From: Nitrosomonas communis | GTDB taxonomy: Bacteria > Pseudomonadota > Gammaproteobacteria > Burkholderiales > Nitrosomonadaceae | Reading direction: 5' to 3' | Assembly: GCF_001007935.1 (NCBI RefSeq) | Contig: NZ_CP011451.1 | Coordinates: forward strand, 248,001 to 312,000 | Length of the DNA stretch: 64,000 nucleotides | Program-made: the position numbers and the translations under genes | Shown: positions 9,114 through 26,807 of the stretch, piece by piece | Numbering within the stretch: the first letter of the stretch is position 1 | Layout of the letters: each line of letters opens with the position of its first letter | Notes under the pieces: model-generated | The model's input: the letters and a program-made list of their open reading frames with translations, nothing else | What the model was told of the DNA's origin: nothing | The model's database searches: none

Positions 9114-9907
9114 AAAAAAATAATATCCCGCTTTCTGCAGTACTATTTGATGTTGACGGCACTCTTGCCGAAACAGAACGAGACGGGCATCGCCCTGCTT
9201 TTAACGCTGCATTTAAAGAGTTTGAACTTGATTGGCATTGGGATACTGAACTATATGGTAAATTACTCAAAATTACCGGCGGCAAAGAACGTATCCGTTA
9301 TTACATTGAAAAATACGCGCCAGACATATTAAGCAAGCGTGATTTGTCCAATTGGATCGCTGAATTACATAAAACTAAAACTAAATATTTTGTTGACTTA
9401 TTAGCAAAAGGGAATATTCCCCTGCGCTCTGGTATAGCACGACTAATTCATGAATTGCGTGAAAATGAAATAAAAATAGGAATTGCTACAACCACAACAT
9501 TAGAAAATGTAACCTCCCTATTAAAATACACACTGGGGGAAGAATCTATTAGTTGGTTTGATGTTATTGGTGCTGGAGATATCGTAGCCCAAAAAAAACC
9601 TGCGCCAGACATTTATTACTGGACACTTAAAGAACTTGGGCTACCACCTCAACAATGCATCGCAATTGAAGATTCAGAAAATGGATTACAGTCCTCCTAT
9701 GCTGCAGGAATTAAAACTATCATCACGATAAGCGAATACACATATTCACAAAATTTCAATGGTGCAGCAATGGTTTTAACTGATCTGGGAGAACCGGGCA
9801 AATTGCCTTCTATTATCTCAGGTGATATTGCTAACCTCAATAACAGATGGATTGATGTCTCGACCTTGATGACTTTATTAGCACCTAATGATCGGCAAAC
9901 TTTATAG
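9110..9907 (+). CDS. HAD-family phosphatase, CbbY-like
   Basis: The 265-residue product shows HAD motif I as FDVDGTLAETERDGHRPAFN (nucleophile Asp, then the acid/base Asp), motif II in GIATTTT, motif III in KKPAPDIYYW and motif IV in AIEDSENGLQSSYAAG. A helical cap lies between motifs I and II. The ERDGHR.AFN pattern matches CbbY proteins, which remove xylulose-1,5-bisphosphate, an inhibitor of RuBisCO. That would suit an autotroph, but no RuBisCO genes lie nearby. The ATG overlaps the previous stop, so the two are co-translated. Confidence 0.88.
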   Translation: MKKNNIPLSAVLFDVDGTLAETERDGHRPAFNAAFKEFELDWHWDTELYGKLLKITGGKERIRYYIEKYAPDILSKRDLSNWIAELHKTKTKYFVDLLAKGNIPLRSGIARLIHELRENEIKIGIATTTTLENVTSLLKYTLGEESISWFDVIGAGDIVAQKKPAPDIYYWTLKELGLPPQQCIAIEDSENGLQSSYAAGIKTIITISEYTYSQNFNGAAMVLTDLGEPGKLPSIISGDIANLNNRWIDVSTLMTLLAPNDRQTL

Positions 9908-10285
9908 TTCTAGCACGATAATAATTCAACTATTAAAGTTTTTTAATTGGCTGTGGATTCAAATTCAAAGTACAGCTTTTGATATTTGTACTCGTAGGAA
10001 TGTGACAGATTGCTGATCCTTTCTATTATCTCTTTAGCATGCTTAGCTGGTAGTCGGCTCGTCAAGATATGGCGCGAGTTTCGCTCTGTCAAGATGACCA
10101 GGTGCTACTGACAACGCTTGCCGACCAAGTATCGCTTTCCTAACCACCTATACGCGCACCCTGCTTCTACATAGCGCTTGCGTCGAGGTTTCTGGCAGCG
10201 CATAGATTGCCTGCCACTAACCATCCCCTGCCAGTTTGTCTGCATAGAGGTATTGACAGGGGGAGTTCATGGTTTATAGTAATTC
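9908..10285. other. Gene-free stretch before the IS remnants
   Basis: No open frame of convincing length or family was recognised on either strand. Composition is more GC-rich from about 10030 than in the preceding genes, so this may be decayed mobile-element DNA. Confidence 0.3.
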
Positions 10286-10287
10286 AA

Positions 10288-11003
10288 CGTGAGTTCGACA
10301 TAAGGATTACGCTACCACAACTGGAAGAGCTTGAGGGGATCTGATATTAAGTGAGAATTCCTTCTCGCGAAAAGTGTAAGCCACCAATCCAGCTATCAGA
10401 TTAACAAAGAAGTTAACTGGACTGCGATCACGGGAATGCTCGATTTGCGACATATTCTTCAATGGGTCATTGACGGTTTCAATAATCGAGCGTTTACGTA
10501 ACCGAGGCTTGCCAAACAGTGGCAACAGCTTGTTTTCATATTCTTGCGTACTTTATGGTAACGAGCTGTATGCCTTGATCCCAGAGTTGCTCAAAGAGTG
10601 ACGGCAAGAGATAACCCCGGTCACCAAAGAGCTTTCTAAATAAGGAGCGCATCAACTCTGGTACTGGGTCACCGTCATCCACATTGCTCGCCGTGATTTT
10701 GACTCCCAGCAATTCCCCCTGCTCATTGATGACCAGGTGCAGCTTGAACCCATAAAACCAACCCACGCTGGTCTTTCCTTAGGCAGCAAACTCCGCCATT
10801 ACTTGATGAGACCCAATGCGATGGTTGTGGCACACACCGTTCTTGGTCGAATCAATGAAGCTGATCCCACCGCAGTGCCCAAAGCGGCTGGTCAGAAAAC
10901 AGCATAAAAGTAGCAGGCTACCTTGCAGCAAATCAACAGAGCAGTTGTAGCCTACTCACCCTAGAAAATAATCCCACTGATATTTCAATACGTAATTCAG
11001 ATA
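10288..11003 (-). mobile_element. Decayed IS982-family element (truncated 5' side)
   Basis: The transposase reads on the minus strand in pieces: 10766-10536 (GFKLHLVINEQGELLGVKIT, LFGDRGYLLPSLFEQLWDQG) and 10525-10307 ([38 protein letters not shown]). Upstream nucleotides to about 11003 still match the second copy at 24.6 kb. A TAA interrupts the frame at the position matching the AARGK region, and there is a frameshift between the two pieces. The right end CGTGAGTTCGACATAAG at 10288 matches the end of the other copy. The 5' third and left end are missing next to the intron relic. It is inactive. Confidence 0.85.
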
Positions 11004-11046
11004 TAGCTTAACCAGTTAAGAATGATTCAGAATGTATAAGATTTGA

Positions 11047-11344
11047 AAAGCATCTCAACGGATTGATTTTGTTGTTTACGCAGCGCTTTGGTAGAGTAAA
11101 GGACTGGCTTTCAATCGCCATTAGGAGTTGCTTATCTGTTTCCGCCCCTTTCGTTTGGCGGTGCCTCAATAGCCATTCCATAGTCAATTTCACCAGCCCT
11201 TCCTCATCAAACTGTGCATGCGTTATTAACGCACACGGCTTTCCGATGCTCTTCACGTCGAGGCATGCGCCATCTTCCAGCCAGCTATCGTTGATAATTT
11301 GTAGAGTCCATGCTTCTCATACAGTACGCACCTCGGAAATTGAA
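11047..11344 (-). mobile_element. Displaced 3' end of group II intron 1
   Basis: Read on the minus strand from 11344, the frame gives FPRCVLYEKHGLYKL...GWKMAHAST and a stop at 11253. This is the typical C-terminus of a group II intron reverse transcriptase, and it continues the frame broken at 17071. The following RNA contains a domain V-like hairpin. It was separated from the rest of the intron by insertion of the 1728-bp IS and by inversion of the segment 13073-17071. The exact 3' end of the intron is not clear; 11047 is approximate. Confidence 0.75.
11209..11242 (-). ncRNA. Group II intron 1 domain V-like hairpin
   Basis: On the minus strand AAGCCGTGTGCG, a TTAATAA loop and CGCATGCACAGTTT form a 34-nt hairpin right after the reverse transcriptase stop, as expected for the catalytic domain V. 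Compared with the common form it has a larger terminal loop and a mismatch, so it may be decayed. Confidence 0.5.
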
Positions 11345-13072
11345 CCTAAATTCCTCTTTTAACCCGAATTGGAAGCCAAATGAAAGGTTGGCAAATCGAG
11401 AACTGGTGGATTTTTTGGTCCGGCTGCAAAGATTTTGTCGATAATGTAGCGTACCAAGGTAGGCCAACGTTCCACTTTTGGCAACTGAGGCGCATTTGCT
11501 AGAATGAAATCAAAACCCTTACGGATACTGCTGATCATTGTTTTGATTTGATCACCCGCCTCATGAGTTAATGTAAGCAATAGTCGAGATTGACCTGCAT
11601 GTCGAGTCAGACGAGCAACCCCATTTAGTAGTAAAGGGCGACTGGTAATTGCTTCCAGATGTGTTTTGGGGTGTGCCAGGCGAACATACCCGCTCCACCA
11701 GTTATAAATGAGCGCGACTGCTCGTGCTGAGAGGTTACAGCGCTCCAGGTCATGAGTGGTATAGCCACCCCAACCCCATTGGTTTTTCAACTCATCAAAG
11801 CCATTCTCGCAATCTGCCCGATCCCGATACCATTGACCGAAGGCTTCCAATGAATAATCAGCATTGGTCACTAAAACAGCCTATTCCCATACTTTGATCT
11901 TATCTAGATGGTCAACGAAGTGCAGGGTTCCCTGTTGAGTATCAGCATTCATTTCGACTGCCAGATTGTTTTTGACTTGACGCCGCAGCACCACTATCCG
12001 CCGCGCGCGACTCCAGCCTGCCAATTGGATTTGATCCTCTACTGCGTCAAAGCCTTGCCCCACGGCTGCCACTGGTTTTGCTGCCATTTCCGCTCGATCA
12101 AACGTTTAATTCCAGCAGTCTGGCGCAGTTTGAACAGATAACGCTGATTAATCTGTTCCATTCCAGCCATCACGCCTTCATTGCCAAAAGCACTGTCGCC
12201 ACGCACCAACGCAGGACGCTTTTCAAGAGCCAAGTCTTCGATTAACTGCCGCAGACGGGGTAGGCTATGTTTGGCAGCATGAGATTTACCGCTTTGCACT
12301 TCGACATCAAGCACCAGACGAACATTGCTAATCCAATACGTATGCAAGGTGTGGCTTGGCCGTCCCGGCTTGCTAGGATTGTAGCCGATCTCAGCACCTG
12401 TTTGACGGCCATATAACAGCTTGACGCTGCTATCAGCGTCAAGAATCCAGGCAGTATTCAAGGCTTCACGAGTACTCTCGCTGAGCGCTGTATCCATCCA
12501 GCTTGTACTCTTCATCAGTTGAGCCAGGCAGACAGCACGTTGCGATTCATCGCAACGTTTGGGTAAACCTGGCGCAAGCGCACTCAGCGCGCGACGCAAG
12601 CTCTCATCGCTGACAATCTTGCCCATGCCAAGTATCTCAGGAGCCACTTCGTCTCCTGGTAGCCCGGCGATGTGGGCATAGCGTCGCTGCCCATCAAGAA
12701 TGGAGAGCAACCAGGTACCCAGTAAATCAACCACAGCAGGCGCATTAGGACTCGTGTAAGAAAGCGGGCATCCTTCTACCCAACGGGCAAATAAGCCGGT
12801 AACTTCCAGGAATTCAGCAAAAAATGCCAACTGACCCATGGCTGTGGCACTTCCGTTTTCATCCCAGCGCACGTGAAATCGACCACCAGGAGTCGACAAA
12901 CACATCTCCTCTGCAGATTGCTCCATCTCCTGCACGGCGTTACTTACCGCCTTTGCCGCTCCTTTTTCCTCAAAATCCTTTTCACCCATTGGGTGATTCC
13001 TTTATTCAGCCATAAAGCCTTGACAGTACTACGTTTTCGGTTGTTTTTATAGGTTCAACTGAGGAAAATAGG
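11345..13072 (-). mobile_element. 1728-bp insertion sequence, copy A (IS1380-like/DDE group 1)
   Basis: The ends are CCTAAATTCCTCTTTTAACC (right) and CCTATTTTCCTCAGTTGAACC-like (left), imperfect inverted repeats sharing CCTA..TTCCTC. The element is the same length and, by its reading frames, the same sequence as copy B at 17072-18799 in the opposite orientation. Flanks are TTGAA on the left and ATTAA on the right and do not match each other, which is explained by inversion of the DNA between A and B. It is inserted in the reverse transcriptase of group II intron 1. Confidence 0.92.
11359..12989 (-). pseudogene. Transposase of IS copy A, frameshifted and interrupted
   Basis: The frame opens at ATG 12989 (MGEKDFEEKGAAKAVSN) with GGAAT...ACCCA upstream and runs 316 residues to a stop at 12039. 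A one-base shift near the GGGG tract at about 12060 moves the frame to the next part (GQGFDAVEDQIQLAGWSRAR). That part ends in an in-frame TAG at 11881, where the family has a codon before AVLVTN, and the rest (VTNADYSLEAFGQWYRDRAD...) runs to 11359. DDE-type signatures are WILDADSSVKLLYGRQ, YNPSKPGRPSH, LVRGDSAFGNEG and YRDRADCENGFDELKNQWGW. This family pattern fits DDE group 1 (IS1380-like). The same two lesions occur in copy B. Confidence 0.85.
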
Positions 13073-13161
13073 ATTAACTTATCAGTTCACGATGATGGTA
13101 CAAGCGTCTTCATAAAATAGTTGAACAACTTCTAGGCGCCTATAAAATTCAGAGTTGTAAA

Positions 13162-13439
13162 GTAAGCGCTCAACGACACCACCTGTCATTCTCTCTGGCT
13201 TAGTGATTTAATGAACTCCGGTGTTAGGGGTAACAATTCATCGATACGGCTATTAGGCCAGGCGGGAAGTTTAATGAGCGTATCTTTGAGCCATGCAGAT
13301 GGGTCCAGTCCATTGAGTTGAGCGGTACCGAACAGGGTTTGGATAGCGGCTGCGCGTTGGCCGGCACGCTCTGAGCCGGTAAATCGCCAATTTTTTTACC
13401 CAGTGCAATGGGACGGATAGCATTTTCCACCGGCTTGTT
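13162..13439 (-). mobile_element. IS66-family relic (3' end)
   Basis: The end GTAAGCGCTCAACGACACCA at 13162 has the GTAAGCG...ACACCAC form of IS66 terminal repeats. On the minus strand the frame from 13439 reads NKPVENAIRPIALGKK, then a frameshift, then the SERAGQRAAA, AQLNGLDPSAWLKDT and LPAWPNSRIDELLP signatures of TnpC in shifted frames. Only the last 90 or so codons remain, because group II intron 1 begins at 13440 and no upstream part was found on its far side. Confidence 0.8.
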
Positions 13440-13873
13440 GTGTGTGCCTTGCTAAGGCGCATCTGATTCGTCGGTGCAAATCCGACCTGGCTAACTATCG
13501 CTCCAGCCGGAAGTACTTGTAGCGGTCCAGGAGGTAACAAATGGGCTGAAGCACTACAAGAAAAGGTCTCCCCGGGAGATCAACGGGCCATGCGGGCCGT
13601 AACGAGAGTGAACACTGAGCAGGCCTCGAAATGTCGTCGTGGGAGCCGACCCGCCACAATAACGGGGAAGGCCGTTGTTCTTGTGGAAGCTGAGCGACTT
13701 AGCCTCAAGAATCCCACCGGGGTAGTAGTGACAGCACGCATGGGAGAGATCAGATGCGCAACAAGGGAAGTCCTCAAGGGTGTCCGGTGGCAACGGACAA
13801 CGATGATCCTGTGAGGGATGGAGCCGGCCAATGGGGATGACGGATGGGCGTGTATTAGTGTTGAGGCCGGGTA

Positions 13874-14632
13874 ATGCCGGAAGAGCGAAGGCGCCCTGTT
13901 TCGAAACGCGATGAGGAAAGTAATAAGAGCGAGGGGATTGATGTGAGTCTACCAACCTTGATGAGTAAAGTTCAGACATTACAGACTTCATTACAGACGA
14001 AAGCCAAGGCAGAACCAGCCTTTCGTTTTTACAGTCTATGGGACAAGGTCTACCGGGCCGATGTACTGCAGGTCGCTTATCGGCGTTGCCGCGCGAATCG
14101 TGGAGCGCCGGGCTACGACGGCATCAGTTTCAAGCAGATCGAGGGCCAAGGGGTGGACGAGTGGCTGGAAAGATTGCAGCAGGAGTTGCGGGTGGGTGGC
14201 TATCAGCCCCAGCCCTTGCTGCGCGTATGGATACCCAAAGCCCAGGGGGGACAGCGCCCTTTGGGCATTCCGACGATTCGGGATCGAGTGGTGCAGATGA
14301 CAGTACTGCTGGTTTTAGGTCCGATTTTCGAAGTCGACCTATTGCCGCGGCAATATGGATTTCGCCCAGGATTGGATGCCAAGATGGCGATTAGGGCGAT
14401 TCATTTCGGCATTACTCAACGGGGGAAGCGGGAAGTGGTAGACGGAGATTTATCCGATTACTTCAACACGATTCCTCATGGCGAGCTGATGCGCTGCGTG
14501 AGCCGCCGAGTGAGCGATGGTACTGTGCTGTCAGTGATCCGGAAATGGCTGAAGGTCGCTGTCATTGAACGCGACGAGCGCGGCGAACGCCGAACCACCG
14601 AAGCCAAGGACAAACAACGAGGCACACCACAG
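13874..14632 (+). pseudogene. Group II intron 1 reverse transcriptase, N-terminal part
   Basis: ATG 13874 opens MPEERRRPVSKRDEESNK. Reverse transcriptase motifs are present: NRGAPGYDGISF (RT1/2), LRVWIPKAQGGQRPLGIPTI (RT2), FRPGLDAKMAI (RT3), VVDGDLSDYFNTIPHGEL (RT4 with catalytic Asp) and the beginning of RT5 as KQRGTPQ. The true coding sequence stops at 14632 exactly between TPQ and GG of the conserved GTPQGG motif, where intron 2 is inserted. The frame runs on artificially to 14674 inside intron 2. Confidence 0.88.
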
Positions 14633-15188
14633 GTGCGCTGTAGACGCGCAACAAACGCAAAATTATTTGCGTAAAGCTGAGCTTAAGCTCTATAGATGAT
14701 GGAGGAATCGACCCTCCGATATCGGCGTTCAGGTGCTGGTATCAAACCACTTCAAGCGGCTGCTGTAAAAGGCGGTGGTCGTGAGCGTTGAAGAAAGTCA
14801 GAGGATAAAATCTGGCGAGGTATGGACTAGAGAGACGAATGAAACTGAATCTCTGTTGAAGCATCGTAAAGCCCTTATGACATCAAAACTGCAGCTATTT
14901 GTGGGGCGGCGGGATAAATCCACAAGCAACCTGATTACTGGGTGGGTGGTGTCCGGTGTGCAGGAGGCGTGAGTCTAGTTCAGGCATTTATAGGGAACTA
15001 CAGGAAGCAGTCGCTTGGATGAAAAGGGAAAAATTCAAGGAAGTGACCTTCCAAGAATGAGCGTACCAAGGCCAAGAACTGTGGCGGGACTACTCGTAGT
15101 AGTGATGAAGTTTCTGTAATGGAAATGGAGCGAAGGGGTAGTGTTAAACAAGCTTAATTTATTATTCAACTTGCAGAAGGATGAAATA

Positions 15189-16476
15189 ATGAAGGCAGCA
15201 AAACCATTTGATATTCCCAAGGCATTAGTGTGGGAAGCGTTCAAATTAGTCAAAGCCAATCAAGGGTCTGCTGGTATAGACCAGGAGTCACTTGAGGATT
15301 TTGAACAGAACTTATCGGGAAACTTATATAAACTTTGGAATAGATTATCATCAGGTGCTTACTTTCCTCCGGCCGTTAAGGGGGTAGCGATACCCAAGAA
15401 ACAAGGAGGAGAAAGAGTGTTAGGCATTCCAACGGTCTCGGATCGAATAGCCCAAATGACAATTAAACTGGCGTTTGAGCCATGCGTTGAACCTCACTTT
15501 TTGGACGACTCCTACGGATATAGACCAAATAAGTCTGCACTAGACGCGGTGGGAGTCACGCGGCAAAGATGTTGGCAGTTCAATTGGCTATTGGAGTTTG
15601 ATATCAAAGGCCTGTTTGACCATATCGACCATAATTATTGATGAAGGCGGTGAGGAAACACACCAATAATCGGTGGATAATACTGTACATAGAACGATGG
15701 TTGAAAGCTCCTATGCAGATGCCAGATGGAAAGCTCGTCAAGCGGGCGCTAGGTACGCGCCTCAGGGCGGTGTGATAAGCCCCGTGTTGAGTAATTTATT
15801 TATGCACTATGCGTTTGATGTGTGGATGACACGTAATCATCAAGAAAAACCATGGTGTCGGTATGCCGATGATGGGATAGCCCATTGCAGAACAAAATGG
15901 TCGGCAGAAAAGTTGTTAGCTGAGCTTAATCAACGTCTTGTCGAGTGTGGTTTAGAACTGCATTCTGAAAAGACAAAAATAGTCTACTGTCAAGATGGCG
16001 CACGAAAAGGGTACCATCAAAGCACAAAGTTTAAATTCTTAGGTTATGAATTTCGCCGAAGAATGGTGAAAGGCTTCGAAGGCAGAATGTTTTTGAGCTT
16101 TACGCCGGCGATAAGTAAAGAAGCCAAGAAATCAATAAATAGAACGATAAGAAGAACGGGGGTGCGAAACAGAAGCGATTTGAGTTTAGAAGAAGTAGCT
16201 CTTTGGCTCAATCCTATGCTTAATGGATGGATCAACTATTATGGGAGGTTCAATAAATCAGCATTGAAACCTGTTATGCGTCAAATAAATTTCACACTTA
16301 TAAAATGGTGCATGCGCAAATACAAGCGGTTCAGATACAGTAAGGCCAGAGCGTGTCAATATCTGATAAAGACTTTTGAGACGCGCCTTACCTATTTGCG
16401 CACTGGAAAAGGGGAATACAAGGTTCATTTGTTTAATGGGAGCCGGATGAAGCGAGAGCTTCACGTCCGGTTCTAA
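15189..16476 (+). pseudogene. Group II intron 2 reverse transcriptase, two frameshifts
   Basis: Start at ATG 15189 (MKAAKPFDIPKALVWEAFK), seven bases after AAGGA. Motifs: NQGSAGIDQESL, AIPKKQGGERVLGIPTVSD, YGYRPNKSALDAV and FDIKGLFDHIDHN. The frame breaks at about 15640 (one base missing), continues in another frame (LMKAVRKHTNNRWIILYIER, DGKLVKRALGT), and breaks again near 15755, where an extra CG in GGTACGCGCCTCAG disrupts GTPQGG. It then runs PQGGVISPVLSNLFMHYAF, RYADDGIAHC (catalytic YADD), KFKFLGYEF and a thumb/maturase region (WLNPMLNGWINYYGRF) to the stop at 16476. No endonuclease domain is seen. As read, no full enzyme can be made. Confidence 0.85.
16440..16473 (+). ncRNA. Group II intron 2 domain V
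   Basis: GAGCCGGATGAAG, a CGAGAG turn and CTTCACGTCCGGTTC form the 34-nt hairpin typical of catalytic domain V. It overlaps the last codons of the reverse transcriptase frame. Confidence 0.85.
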
Positions 16477-16513
16477 GAGCGGCTGAGGGGAAAGTACTCT
16501 CGGCCGACTCACC

Positions 16514-17071
16514 GGAGGAGTCATATCGCCGTTGCTATCGAACATCTACCTGCACCTGATGGATCGTATCTGGCAACGCGGGGAACTGGCAAAGAACCAG
16601 CAAGCGAAGTTGGTGCGATATGCTGACGACTTTGTCGTGCTGTGCCGGAAAGACGTTGCCACGCCGCTGCGCATCGTCAGGGAAATACTGGGGAGGCTGG
16701 AACTGGAACTCAATGAAGGCAAGACAAAGATTGTTGATGCCGGCAAAGAGAAGTTTCGCTTTCTGGGATTTGAACTGAAGATGAATGTCGGCTCAAAGGG
16801 GATGGCTTACCCGCACATCAATCCGTGCGATAAGGCGGTAGAGAAGGTAAAGACCCGCATCAGTGAGATAACGGCGAGGAACCAGACATGGAGACCGTTG
16901 GACGAGGTAGTGCGTGATATGAATCGAACGCTGCGCGGTTGGTCGGAGTATTTTCATTTCAGGAATTCATCGGCGGTATTTCTCAAGGTGAAACGTTTTG
17001 CTGAAGAGCGGTTGAGAATTCATCTACGCAAGCGGTACAAGGTGACAAATTGGAAATCAGCAATGATTCAA
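16514..17071 (+). pseudogene. Group II intron 1 reverse transcriptase, middle part
   Basis: Coding resumes with GGVISPLLSNIYLHLMD directly after intron 2. It contains the catalytic RYADDFVVLC motif, the LELELNEGKTKIVDAG region, KFRFLGFELKMN, and the maturase (thumb) domain with MNRTLRGWSEYFHFRNSS and LRIHLRKRYKVTNWKSAM. At 17071 IS copy B interrupts the frame after MIQ. Joining 17071 to the minus strand at 11339 restores a normal C-terminus. The artificial frame runs on to 17089. Confidence 0.88.
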
Positions 17072-18799
17072 CCTATTTTCCTCAGTTGAACCTATAAAAA
17101 CAACCGAAAACGTAGTACTGTCAAGGCTTTATGGCTGAATAAAGGAATCACCCAATGGGTGAAAAGGATTTTGAGGAAAAAGGAGCGGCAAAGGCGGTAA
17201 GTAACGCCGTGCAGGAGATGGAGCAATCTGCAGAGGAGATGTGTTTGTCGACTCCTGGTGGTCGATTTCACGTGCGCTGGGATGAAAACGGAAGTGCCAC
17301 AGCCATGGGTCAGTTGGCATTTTTTGCTGAATTCCTGGAAGTTACCGGCTTATTTGCCCGTTGGGTAGAAGGATGCCCGCTTTCTTACACGAGTCCTAAT
17401 GCGCCTGCTGTGGTTGATTTACTGGGTACCTGGTTGCTCTCCATTCTTGATGGGCAGCGACGCTATGCCCACATCGCCGGGCTACCAGGAGACGAAGTGG
17501 CTCCTGAGATACTTGGCATGGGCAAGATTGTCAGCGATGAGAGCTTGCGTCGCGCGCTGAGTGCGCTTGCGCCAGGTTTACCCAAACGTTGCGATGAATC
17601 GCAACGTGCTGTCTGCCTGGCTCAACTGATGAAGAGTACAAGCTGGATGGATACAGCGCTCAGCGAGAGTACTCGTGAAGCCTTGAATACTGCCTGGATT
17701 CTTGACGCTGATAGCAGCGTCAAGCTGTTATATGGCCGTCAAACAGGTGCTGAGATCGGCTACAATCCTAGCAAGCCGGGACGGCCAAGCCACACCTTGC
17801 ATACGTATTGGATTAGCAATGTTCGTCTGGTGCTTGATGTCGAAGTGCAAAGCGGTAAATCTCATGCTGCCAAACATAGCCTACCCCGTCTGCGGCAGTT
17901 AATCGAAGACTTGGCTCTTGAAAAGCGTCCTGCGTTGGTGCGTGGCGACAGTGCTTTTGGCAATGAAGGCGTGATGGCTGGAATGGAACAGATTAATCAG
18001 CGTTATCTGTTCAAACTGCGCCAGACTGCTGGAATTAAACGTTTGATCGAGCGGAAATGGCAGCAAAACCAGTGGCAGCCGTGGGGCAAGGCTTTGACGC
18101 AGTAGAGGATCAAATCCAATTGGCAGGCTGGAGTCGCGCGCGGCGGATAGTGGTGCTGCGGCGTCAAGTCAAAAACAATCTGGCAGTCGAAATGAATGCT
18201 GATACTCAACAGGGAACCCTGCACTTCGTTGACCATCTAGATAAGATCAAAGTATGGGAATAGGCTGTTTTAGTGACCAATGCTGATTATTCATTGGAAG
18301 CCTTCGGTCAATGGTATCGGGATCGGGCAGATTGCGAGAATGGCTTTGATGAGTTGAAAAACCAATGGGGTTGGGGTGGCTATACCACTCATGACCTGGA
18401 GCGCTGTAACCTCTCAGCACGAGCAGTCGCGCTCATTTATAACTGGTGGAGCGGGTATGTTCGCCTGGCACACCCCAAAACACATCTGGAAGCAATTACC
18501 AGTCGCCCTTTACTACTAAATGGGGTTGCTCGTCTGACTCGACATGCAGGTCAATCTCGACTATTGCTTACATTAACTCATGAGGCGGGTGATCAAATCA
18601 AAACAATGATCAGCAGTATCCGTAAGGGTTTTGATTTCATTCTAGCAAATGCGCCTCAGTTGCCAAAAGTGGAACGTTGGCCTACCTTGGTACGCTACAT
18701 TATCGACAAAATCTTTGCAGCCGGACCAAAAAATCCACCAGTTCTCGATTTGCCAACCTTTCATTTGGCTTCCAATTCGGGTTAAAAGAGGAATTTAGG
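17072..18799 (+). mobile_element. 1728-bp insertion sequence, copy B (IS1380-like/DDE group 1)
   Basis: Identical in length and coding content to copy A (11345-13072), in inverse orientation. It starts CCTATTTTCCTC and ends GAGGAATTTAGG. Its flanks are TTCAA (17067-17071) and TTAAT (18800-18804), which do not match each other but match, after reverse complementing, the flanks of copy A. It lies 45 bases beyond the stop of the last antiporter gene. Confidence 0.92.
17155..18785 (+). pseudogene. Transposase of IS copy B, frameshifted and interrupted
   Basis: Same sequence as in copy A: 316 codons from ATG 17155 to a stop at 18105, a shift near the GGGG tract at about 18083, an in-frame TAG at 18261-18263, then the YRDRADCENGFDELKNQWGW end to 18785. 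The third acidic residue of the DDE triad is likely in this last part (RADCENGFDE), so it would be lost from the 316-residue product. Either an intact relative elsewhere moved these copies or the reading-frame changes are programmed. Confidence 0.85.
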
Positions 18800-18844
18800 T
18801 TAATAAATCAGTATTTGCTTTTTTACTAAGGAAAAAAGATGACC

Positions 18845-20347
18845 TTAAAGCAAGTATTCGCGTTTAACAATCAGTTTTACCCAGTATAAGGGACTCCAGT
18901 CGGTATCCGCAAATATACCCGCTAATAAAGTTGCAGTAGCAGAAACAAGAGGCGGTATCAGTAAGAGTCCATGAGTTTCCCATCGACCCTTGGTGTAGAT
19001 ACGTTCTTGTACCCAAGTCTGTGGCTGAGTTTTAAACCAGAATCGATACATGATTGGCAAAAAATAAGCTGCATTAAGGAGGCTCGAAACAGTCAATACC
19101 CAGCTTGCCCACATCTGATCTGCTATCTCTGCACCCTGGTTGAGATAGAGTTTACTAATATAGCCCGCCGTCAATGGCGCCCCAATCATACCAAGAGCAG
19201 CTATGCAAAAAGCTATTGACGTCCATGGCATACGCCATCCTACCCCATTCATCTCGCTTATTTTATGGATACCTAAAGTCTCAGCATAATTACCAGCGCA
19301 GAAAAAGAGGGTAATTTTCATGATGCCTTGATGAACAAGATGAACAATTCCGCCAATAGTACTTACTGGCCCAAATAAACTCATTCCAAGAATAATATAC
19401 GAGACTTGGCTAACAGTTGAATAAGCAAGTCGTCGTTTTAGATCGCCTTGCCAGAGAGCACACAGTGATCCCCAGATAATGGTAATCGAAGCTGCTATAG
19501 CAAGTGGTATAAGCAAATTCATGCTTTGCAAATATTCCACACCATAAACTTCATACACGATTCGTATGATGCCAAAAGCTCCTGCCTTCACGACTGCTAC
19601 TGCATGGAGCAAAGCTGATACTGGCGCTGGCGCCACCATTGCTTGCGGCAGCCAGCCATGTAACGGCACCAAAGCTGCTTTTACACCCAGTCCAATAATG
19701 AGTAACAGAAAAATTATCTGTAACTGAGGTGAATATTTTGAATCCAATACGGTTACTACACCACCATACATAAACTCAACTCGGCCCAGCAAACTGTACA
19801 ACCAGATTATACCTACCAGCAATACTGCCCCACCAGAAAGTGTATAGATCAGATAGATATTTCCAGCGCGAATGGCTGCTTCTGTCCCTCGGTGCACCAC
19901 CAGAGGATAGGTGGATAGCGTCAGCAGTTCATAGAAAATGAAGAAAGTAAACAGATTACCCGCCATTGCCACACCTACAGTGGCGGTAACACAAAGACTG
20001 AAGAAACCAAAAAAGCGGCTACGATGAGGCGAACGTTCTAAATAACCGACAGCATAAAAGGTCGTCAAGAGCCATAATGCTGCTGACAAGGTGACAAAGA
20101 GTGCAGCTAGTGCATCTACCTTGAGTACTAGCTCCAGATTAAGTAATAAATTGTAACGCAAAATGTAGATCTGGCCATGTTGAATGCCCCATAGCATGTA
20201 ACCTATCAGCAGCAGCTTGAGAATTGCGCCTGTCAGATTTAATAAGGTGCGCAAGCGAATGCGTGACTCTGGCAGAAAGAAAATGATCACTCCTGGCACC
20301 AGTGAACTGGCCAGAACGAGTAAAAGTAGGCTCTCGTTGATGCTCAA
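18845..20347 (-). CDS. NuoL/NuoN-type antiporter subunit (second MnhD-like)
   Basis: The 500-residue product has about 14 membrane helices of the proton-conducting antiporter family. The key residues are the Glu in FFIFYELLTLSTYPLV and the Lys in GLGVKAALVPLHGWLP and AVVKAGAFGIIRI. The start is TTG 20347, overlapping the previous stop (TTGA), after GGGGGCGGG. It is the last gene of the antiporter operon and takes the place of the large NuoL-like half of MrpA. Whether it moves H+ only or takes part in Na+/H+ exchange cannot be told from sequence. IS copy B sits 45 bases downstream, so any former downstream genes have been displaced. Confidence 0.85.
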   Translation of the reverse strand: MSINESLLLLVLASSLVPGVIIFFLPESRIRLRTLLNLTGAILKLLLIGYMLWGIQHGQIYILRYNLLLNLELVLKVDALAALFVTLSAALWLLTTFYAVGYLERSPHRSRFFGFFSLCVTATVGVAMAGNLFTFFIFYELLTLSTYPLVVHRGTEAAIRAGNIYLIYTLSGGAVLLVGIIWLYSLLGRVEFMYGGVVTVLDSKYSPQLQIIFLLLIIGLGVKAALVPLHGWLPQAMVAPAPVSALLHAVAVVKAGAFGIIRIVYEVYGVEYLQSMNLLIPLAIAASITIIWGSLCALWQGDLKRRLAYSTVSQVSYIILGMSLFGPVSTIGGIVHLVHQGIMKITLFFCAGNYAETLGIHKISEMNGVGWRMPWTSIAFCIAALGMIGAPLTAGYISKLYLNQGAEIADQMWASWVLTVSSLLNAAYFLPIMYRFWFKTQPQTWVQERIYTKGRWETHGLLLIPPLVSATATLLAGIFADTDWSPLYWVKLIVKREYLL

Positions 20348-21786
20348 CCCGCCCCCAGTATATTTAAAACATTACCAGATGCAAAACTCAACGACAAGCT
20401 AATAAAAGCAAGCAAAAAAGCAGGCCATTCCAGAGGAGGGTTTACAGGGCTGAATTTCATCTCCGCTGCTGCTGGCAAAAAAGCCTGGCGTAACACTTTA
20501 AATACATACCCTGCACTCAGCAGCCCTCCCAGAATCATCACGACTACCCAGCTCCATTGACCACTAATCACAGCACTGCTAATCAGTAACCACTTAGCTA
20601 TAAAACCCCCGGTAGGAGGTAATCCCATTAAGGTTACTCCTGCCAAAGCAAAAGTAAACAAAGTAAGTGGTAAACGTCTGGAAATTCCGCTTAGCAATGC
20701 TATGTCATCTTTGCCCACCGATAGTATCATTACACCCGCAGCGGCAAACATTGCTGCCTTGGCTAAAGCGTGCGCCACAAGCTGAATCACACCGCCTTGC
20801 ATTGCAATTCCAGCCGCTTCTGAGCCAACCTCAGTAATCAAAGGAAAAAGTAAGAAAAAATAGCCAATCTGAGCTACAGTAGAATAAGCTACCAGCATCT
20901 TCAGCCGTGTTTGGTTAAATGCCATGATTGATCCCCACAGTATGGCCACCGCACCCAGCCCTCCCAGCAGTTGAGCTGTCTGTATTGTCGCCAAAGGAGC
21001 ATACAGGCCAAGCCACATGCGCAGGATGAGATAAAAAGAAGCTTTAATGACTAATGCCGAAAGCAAGGCTGATACTGGGGTTAGCGCCCCACCATGAACT
21101 GATGGTAACCAAAAATGAAAAGGGAATAAAGCTGTCTTAAGCAATAATCCGACCAGCATCAATATAGCTGCGAGGAATACTGCAGCAGAAACTTCATTTT
21201 CAATTAATGGCTCTAGCACAGCTAACGATACACTGCCATAACTACCATAAATCAGCGCAACACCAGCCAAATATACACCTGAGCCAAGCAGAGTAACCAG
21301 CAGGTAGCGTATGGCTGCCAATATCGACTCTGTTTTACCTGCCATTCCTACCAGTCCAACTGCTGCCAAGCCTAATAACTCTAGAGTAACGTATATATTG
21401 AATAAATCAGCTGACATGAATAGCGTATTCATAGCTGCTAACAGAAAACCGAGCATTGGCCAAAAATAACCGACACTCTCGACATTATGAGAATAATAGT
21501 AGCGCGCATAGATCCCTAGCGGCAAGATCACCACATGGGTAAGCAATAGCATTACACTAGCCAGACCATCCACGTATAAATCAATTCCCAGAGGAGCGCC
21601 CCAACCACCGACGGCATAATACCGCCCCCCCTCCGCGACAGCCTGCCCTACCAATAATGCTACCAAAGCTAGGTGAATTGCCAAACATGCGACCGCTAAC
21701 CGACCTCCCCGCCTCACACCTAGCAGAAAAGATAGTGATCCCCATAGTAAAGGCAGCAAAATTAACCAAGGTATAGGATCACTCAC
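20344..21786 (-). CDS. mnhD: Cation/proton antiporter subunit MnhD/MrpD
   Basis: 480 residues, GTG start at 21786 overlapping the mnhC stop (GTGA). It is a multi-helix protein of the NuoN/MrpD family with Glu in FNIYVTLELLGLAAVGLVG and Lys in GLLLKTALFPFHFWLPSVHG and LVIKASFYLILRM, the residues that carry protons in this family. It would form one of the transport channels of the Mrp-type complex. It corresponds to MbhH in the Mbh gene order. Confidence 0.88.
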   Translation of the reverse strand: MSDPIPWLILLPLLWGSLSFLLGVRRGGRLAVACLAIHLALVALLVGQAVAEGGRYYAVGGWGAPLGIDLYVDGLASVMLLLTHVVILPLGIYARYYYSHNVESVGYFWPMLGFLLAAMNTLFMSADLFNIYVTLELLGLAAVGLVGMAGKTESILAAIRYLLVTLLGSGVYLAGVALIYGSYGSVSLAVLEPLIENEVSAAVFLAAILMLVGLLLKTALFPFHFWLPSVHGGALTPVSALLSALVIKASFYLILRMWLGLYAPLATIQTAQLLGGLGAVAILWGSIMAFNQTRLKMLVAYSTVAQIGYFFLLFPLITEVGSEAAGIAMQGGVIQLVAHALAKAAMFAAAGVMILSVGKDDIALLSGISRRLPLTLFTFALAGVTLMGLPPTGGFIAKWLLISSAVISGQWSWVVVMILGGLLSAGYVFKVLRQAFLPAAAEMKFSPVNPPLEWPAFLLAFISLSLSFASGNVLNILGAG

Positions 21787-24176: not shown

Positions 24177-24620
24177 ATTCTTACCTCAAGAGAATTGAAC
24201 AGCTTTAACAAATCAGCTGGTTACCGCCCAGTTCAACACGAGAGTATTATCGAGTGACAGGTAATATTGCTCCCCGTGACTTTTCCTGTCCTTGAATATT
24301 CTTTCTTCCAGGATGAGTACAAATAAGGAAGAGATCCTCCATACACCACTTTCCTGAGTAAAAGCAAGATAGCCAAGAATACCACAGCTTGGTCACATGC
24401 ATTGCACCATTGTCTGATCATCCTATAAAACGAAGGAATTAATTTCTGATTGTGTCTCGTGTATTGAAATTCTGCATCAATTGCTTTTATATACTTTCTA
24501 TAAATTTTGCAATATGTTGATTAACTTATACTTATGCAGCTTTTTCTTCTAACAGGCTATAGCGTTGGTAAGAATAACCCTTCTGCTATAAAAAAATAAT
24601 CATGCAAGTATTTAAAATAA
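24177..24620. other. Gene-free region upstream of mnhE
   Basis: No supported gene; a 62-codon minus-strand frame (24421-24233) shows no recognisable family and no good ribosome binding site. It should hold the antiporter operon promoter. Confidence 0.35.
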
Positions 24621-25407
24621 CGTGAGTTCGACATAAGAAAAGCTGTAAAAGGAATCTGAATTCCTTATGATGAAGTAGTTCTGGAAAGAATTTCATCATG
24701 AGGGGGGTCAGATTTCAATGGGTACTACAACGATTTTTTGTGAGAGTGACAAATTTTGTAAAGAGTTTGAACCACGATGGGAGCAGCACTTATTAGAGTC
24801 ATCGCTGAAACGGCATCGGCGGCAAGAAGCGCTGTGTCTAAGCGAAATCATGACCATTATGGTGGGGTTTCATCTGCCCGGCTACCGGACATTTAAGCAC
24901 TATTACCTGAATTACGTGTTGAGGTATCAGCGGGGTTATTTTCCAGGGTTGGTGAGCTATAACCGCTTTGTTGAGCTATTGCAAGGTAGCCTGGTACCTT
25001 TGTGCTGTTTTCTGACCAGCCGCTTTGGGCAATGCAGTGGGATCAGCTTCATTGATTCAACCAAAATCAGCGTGTGCCACAATCGCTGCATTGGATCGCA
25101 TACAGTAATGGCAGAGTTTGCTGCCCGGGGAAAGACCAGTGTGGATTGGTTTTAAGGGTTCAAGCTGCACCTGGTCATCAATGAGCAGGGGAAATTGCTG
25201 GGAGTCAAAATCACGGCGGGCAATGTGGATGACCGTGACCCGGTATCAGAGTTGACGCGTTCCTTATTTGGCAAGCTCTTTGGTGACCGGGGTTATCTCT
25301 CGCCGTCACTCTTTGAGCAATTCCGGGAGCAAGACGTGCAGTTCATTACCAAAGTACGCAAAAATATGAAAAACAAGCTGTTGCCACTTTTTGACAAGCT
25401 GCTGTTA

Positions 25408-26291: not shown

Positions 26292-26504
26292 TACCTAAAC
26301 GCTCGATTATTGAAACCGTTAATGATCCATTGAGGAACTTGTCGCAAGTCGAGCATTCCCGTCATCGCAGCCCAGTTAGCTTCTTTGTCAATCTGATAGC
26401 CGGACTGATGACTTACACTTTTCGCGAGAAGAAACCCTCGCTTAATATCAGACTCCTTCAAGCTCTTCCAATCGTGATGTGATGATTCTCATATCGAACT
26501 CACG

Positions 26505-26807
26505 TTAATAGCATTTCCAGAAACTGCATAGGAAAAATACATCTTTTAATTAGATTTGCCGCATTAACACAATTATTTCTCGGTTTCTTGCAAAAGATTC
26601 GCAAAATATGCCCTAACTGTTGATGAAAAATCTGTTTTTATAGAGTTTTCAAAAGAATAGGAGGTTTTATAAACATCTCACCAATTTTTATTACAAATTA
26701 AAATTACCAAGCTCATCAATCATAATGAACCACAAACTCAGGAATTATTATTACTCTTTCAGTTTCAACCGCACGAATTCTACAGCGATAACAAGGCCAT
26801 TTTCTAA
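26505..26807. other. Gene-free AT-rich stretch after IS982
   Basis: No gene, RNA or repeat was recognised. It lies downstream of nlpD and may contain its transcription end, but no clear terminator hairpin was seen. Confidence 0.3.

Follow-up and report, generated by a model that had tools for sequence, protein, structure and literature searches.

Inversion of a 3999-bp segment between two identical, oppositely oriented IS1380-like elements in Nitrosomonas communis

The locus lies within a 64,000-nucleotide stretch of the Nitrosomonas communis genome (contig NZ_CP011451.1, positions 248,001 to 312,000; hereafter the window, whose coordinates are used throughout, with positions in the genome as a whole given as C1). 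Two copies of one insertion sequence (IS) of 1728 bp each, A (11345-13072) and B (17072-18799), are found there in opposite orientation at the two ends of a 3999-bp segment. The preliminary description had called them identical and inverted, and indeed A and the reverse complement of B show 0 differences over 1728 bp. The segment is situated between convergent genes, one ending at 9907 (plus strand; HAD-like, as judged by eye) and an antiporter gene ending at 18845 (minus strand), and it contains the remains of mobile elements. The features are as follows.

11001..11344, minus: 3' end of outer group II intron Y, with the end of the reverse transcriptase, D5-D6 and the 3' exon (from paralogue matches and Rfam)
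11340..11344, no strand: outer flank of A, TTGAA (from reading the flanks)
11345..13072, transposase on minus: IS copy A, IS1380-like, with a 1-bp deletion and an amber codon interrupting the frame
13073..17071, no strand: inverted segment, 3999 bp, with the ends ATTAA (13073-13077) and TTCAA (17067-17071)
13073..13160, plus: short stretch that in the related genome G061 stands directly beside the antiporter flank (18800 onward)
13161..13441, plus: end of an element that we take to be IS66-like, 5' exon of outer intron X (shared with C1:1507611)
13442..14632, plus: 5' part of outer group II intron X and first part of its reverse transcriptase (Rfam RF02003, RVT_1, L041)
14633..16513, plus: inner (nested) group II intron N, which encodes a reverse transcriptase of its own in two frames (Rfam RF01999, RF00029); 3' end placed within a base or so
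16514..17071, plus: remaining reverse transcriptase part of outer intron Y, cut where B begins
17072..18799, transposase on plus: IS copy B, the identical inverse of A
18800..18804, no strand: outer flank of B, TTAAT (from reading the flanks)

Elements of the IS1380 family are expected to end in imperfect inverted repeats and to duplicate a short stretch of target. The ends of the element, CCTAAATTCCTC and CCTATTTTCCTC, form such imperfect repeats, and the 5-bp duplications around its other full copies fit the second expectation. Against the NCBIfam model NF033539, copy A matches in two pieces (86.3 and 31.6 bits) and the best copies of the lineage reach 136.7 bits (positions 6-415 of 419); because the cut-off of 180 bits is not reached, we name the element IS1380-like. 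Relative to the four other full copies in the genome, A and B differ at 8-11 positions, and at three of the positions (959, 1474 and 1653) A and B share a base that is absent from all four. The 1-bp deletion in the transposase frame occurs in A, B and L003, while the amber codon (TAG) is found at one and the same transposase codon in 7 of 7 genome copies, the diverged copy L007 included. In other genomes this position encodes Tyr or His in 22 of the 25 loci that could be aligned there, the other 3 being out of frame (51 loci were looked at, and one genome is possibly listed twice). An uninterrupted transposase frame of this lineage is found in none of the 7 genome copies, and the codon changes downstream of the stop relative to L007 reveal no clear constraint. 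Although every copy (L003-L007 included) has the amber codon, the lineage has spread, and its duplications look fresh. As a separate observation, three copies of another IS1380 transposase carry three in-frame TGA codons each, with the sister copy at C1:1655889 open (the loci of this set are L146-L148, at G000:C1:2348275, 3810188 and 2763267, and L145).

On the plus strand, the flanks read TTGAA-A-ATTAA and TTCAA-B-TTAAT, so that both copies have mismatched 5-bp flanks. Turning 13073-17071 back yields two perfect 5-bp duplications, exchanged between A and B; these flanks, the length of the segment and the restored duplications, all given in the preliminary description, were exactly reproduced on re-reading. 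The genome (4,067,838 bp, one contig) has four further full copies that are nearly identical to A and B, at C1:1057509, 1317083, 1721324 and 3954363, and 4 of 4 are bounded by perfect 5-bp duplications (among the four, TTGAT, TTTAT, ATCAT and ATCAA); L007 (88% identity) is excluded from this count. A second IS1380 lineage of 5 copies has apparently matching 4-bp flanks at 3 copies and flanks that are off by one base at another; one of its five alignments is incomplete, and the lineage was not used as a duplication control.

When the six copies are compared in all 30 ordered pairs, the left flank of one equals the right flank of another in only 2, A to B and B to A. Such a crosswise match might also be accidental, in which case the segment never turned and the ISs had no matching duplications from the start or no longer have them. 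From base composition alone, the double match would arise by chance with a probability of ~1e-6. All six target sites, however, fit WTNAW, and under a site model with this preference, built from only four other copies' sites, the figure is ~0.005. With a double match so much likelier under the site preference, the flank argument is right yet weaker than it appears, and by themselves the flanks are only suggestive.

More direct evidence comes from the empty sites. For A, the inner end of the segment and the left flank have their matches side by side at another place in the genome, in C1:2574912-2575256 and 2575252-2575468, two stretches with 5 bases in common. In this paralogue, a different locus that serves as the empty site, the counterpart of 16727-17071 is joined through a single TTCAA to the left flank in reverse complement, and the re-inverted A join is identical to it at 552 of 557 aligned bases. 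The last 135 bases of the join realign (126/135) beyond ~900 bases of other DNA in the paralogue. The reading frame spanning the re-inverted junction is the last part of the reverse transcriptase of a group II intron. The left flank of A, 11001-11344, which is outside the inverted segment, carries the 3' end of this intron (217-bp match to C1:2575252-2575468 and 135-bp match to C1:2576371-2576505). To the left of the intron end, 10286-11004 is a repeat remnant, presumably IS982-like; the query 10000-11344 has at least 48 matches in the genome, mostly here, with 40 of 126 candidate matches scored.

For B, we searched 85 genomes of the genus (our own included) with 13073-13160 and obtained matches in two, our own and G061. 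In G061 the antiporter flank is followed directly by the counterpart of 13078-13131, one base of the 5-mer being different. The re-inverted B join aligns to G061 with a score of 240 and the join in its present order with 150, the first 101 bases (antiporter flank) being common to both. The outer side of B is matched in 6 of 61 genomes, own included, among them G018, which is 92% identical over 18800-20400. There, similarity starts exactly at TTAAT and the DNA inward is different; 13073-13160 gives a local score of 22, below the best of 200 shuffles (31-35). G018 shares TTAAT and the outward DNA but, as an empty site of B, is uninformative and gives no evidence for or against the inversion, whereas G061 is continuous over the re-inverted B junction. 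In the G061 DNA beside the empty site we also noticed short stretches 79-85% alike to 24604-24675, 24732-24828, 26425-26507 and 10286-10367, possibly a small dispersed repeat.

As far as can be read from the DNA, these comparisons show at both junctions that 13073-17071 was flipped, and the two empty sites make the inversion firm. It is supported by the continuous sequence over both re-inverted junctions (paralogue and G061), by an intron split across the two strands (see below) and by the intact duplications on 4 of 4 other copies, and the inversion proposed in the preliminary description is upheld. A chance flank match leaves the continuous junctions and the strand-split intron unexplained and is ruled out by the empty sites of A and B; we regard its probability as practically negligible. 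Movement of the whole as a composite transposon is not favoured either: the outer flanks, TTGAA and TTAAT, differ.

The split intron is seen from the Rfam matches. On the plus strand, group II D1-D4 is found at 13468-13607 (RF02003) and 14701-14820 (RF01999) and domain V at 16438-16513 (RF00029), while a further RF00029 match lies on the minus strand at 11091-11243 (34.9 bits, under the gathering score of 40). Because of the inversion, the outer intron now has its D1-D4 end on plus and its D5-D6 end on minus. In addition, the outer intron is chimeric. Its 5' part matches the copy at C1:1507611 (99.5% identity of 13161-14633 to C1:1507611-1509082, L041) and its 3' part the paralogue at C1:2574912; after the QGG motif, the reverse transcriptases of the 1507611 copy and of the 3' part in the window share 38 of 108 aligned columns. 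The IS66-like end stands alone in relatives, up to 13441. The X and Y parts of the outer intron meet at the nested group II intron, for the greater part of which (14616-16477) a copy of 99.7% identity is present at C1:2317254. That copy follows the same motif of another reverse transcriptase, with its 3' end ~3 kb further on. The chimeric outer intron would be accounted for by a recombination event between two such nested introns. Folding the D5 region gave no better result than folding shuffled sequences (25 of 200 equally good), and the fold was not used as evidence.

The arrangement is an intron within an intron (loci L041, L042 and L040), and a literature search on N. communis and group II introns found no paper. 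Twintrons of Thermosynechococcus elongatus are described in which a group II intron is likewise situated within the reverse transcriptase coding frame of an outer intron (PMC2882425). The inner intron of T. elongatus has no ORF and lies between the first two start codons (PMC2882425), whereas the inner intron here has its own reverse transcriptase, is inserted in the QGG motif and joins two different outer-intron halves.

How did the segment turn? We propose that both ISs would have been in place first, A, between two TTGAA duplicates, in the 3' end of the reverse transcriptase of the group II intron, and B, between two TTAAT duplicates, past the 3' end of the antiporter gene. The host, and not the transposase, would then have flipped the 3999 bp between these identical inverted copies by homologous (RecA-type) recombination. 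Perfect inverted repeats of 1.7 kb lie 4 kb apart here, and recombination between them is the simplest route; we assign a probability of about 75% to the flip having occurred by homologous recombination between the two IS1380-like copies. The identity of A and B fits a copying of B from A, or the reverse, as well as it fits two insertions, and recombination can also homogenise the two.

Identical inverted repeats are a known trap for assemblers, and with A and B forming such repeats of 1.7 kb the true molecule might have the opposite orientation, the segment having been turned by the assembler. The N. communis Nm2 genome (4.07 Mb, one contig) was sequenced with PacBio at 96x from 429.2 Mb in 110,554 reads (PMC4714114), i.e. 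~3.9 kb per read by division. If the genome studied here is that of Nm2, the mean read exceeds the length of the IS, which speaks against such an error, and we hold it to be very unlikely.

A different biological route is that a single IS, A or B, underwent intramolecular replicative transposition to a target 4 kb away, in which case the second copy and the flip would have arisen in one step. Replicative intramolecular inversion is described for IS26 and other IS6-family elements and in theory gives the same flank pattern, each IS copy having one original flank and one inverted target copy, as at our locus (PMC7986276, including its Fig. 6 legend). This route would also account for A and B being mutually closest, without a single difference and with three bases that the four others lack. 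However, IS26 belongs to another family, has 8-bp repeats and is known for replicative transposition (PMC7986276), and the portions of the literature covered hold no statement that IS1380 elements transpose replicatively; a search on replicative transposition with adjacent inversion found no paper. Moreover, the frames of A and B are both broken twice, so that transposase would be needed in trans, and 0 of 7 copies of the lineage in the genome have an uninterrupted frame. We consider a replicative origin rather improbable. The earlier proposal of recombination between the ISs after both had inserted remains the best reading of the locus, with its route and order of events deduced from flanks that replicative inversion would leave as well (PMC7986276).

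For the recombination reading, inversion 2z3 of Drosophila buzzatii appears to be the nearest precedent, ascribed to ectopic recombination between two Galileo transposons (PMC2775673). Both cases have opposite copies at the breakpoints, exchanged duplications and single target copies in the non-inverted state. At 2z3 both transposon copies are chimeric, which proves recombination (PMC2775673), whereas here A equals B and chimerism is uninformative; furthermore, our segment is far smaller and the element is a bacterial IS.

A functional inversion switch is neither favoured nor to be expected, given that the segment lies between convergent genes and that A would stay inside the intron after turning back, so that the intron is interrupted whichever way the segment lies. 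That the segment flips often enough for both orientations to be present in one culture seems unlikely to us. If it did, cells would differ in whether or not the halves of the chimeric twintron share a strand, and even then a gene switch would not be obvious. The biological effect of the inversion is probably nil. Swapped duplications alone can mislead in such cases, both because a site preference can lift the chance of a double match (here ~4000-fold) and because replicative inversion leaves the same scar. The locus is a new example of a known, ordinary kind of rearrangement, IS-mediated inversion, and an unusually well documented one, with swapped duplications, matching flanks at 4 of 4 further full copies and, for either junction, a sequence that runs through without interruption.
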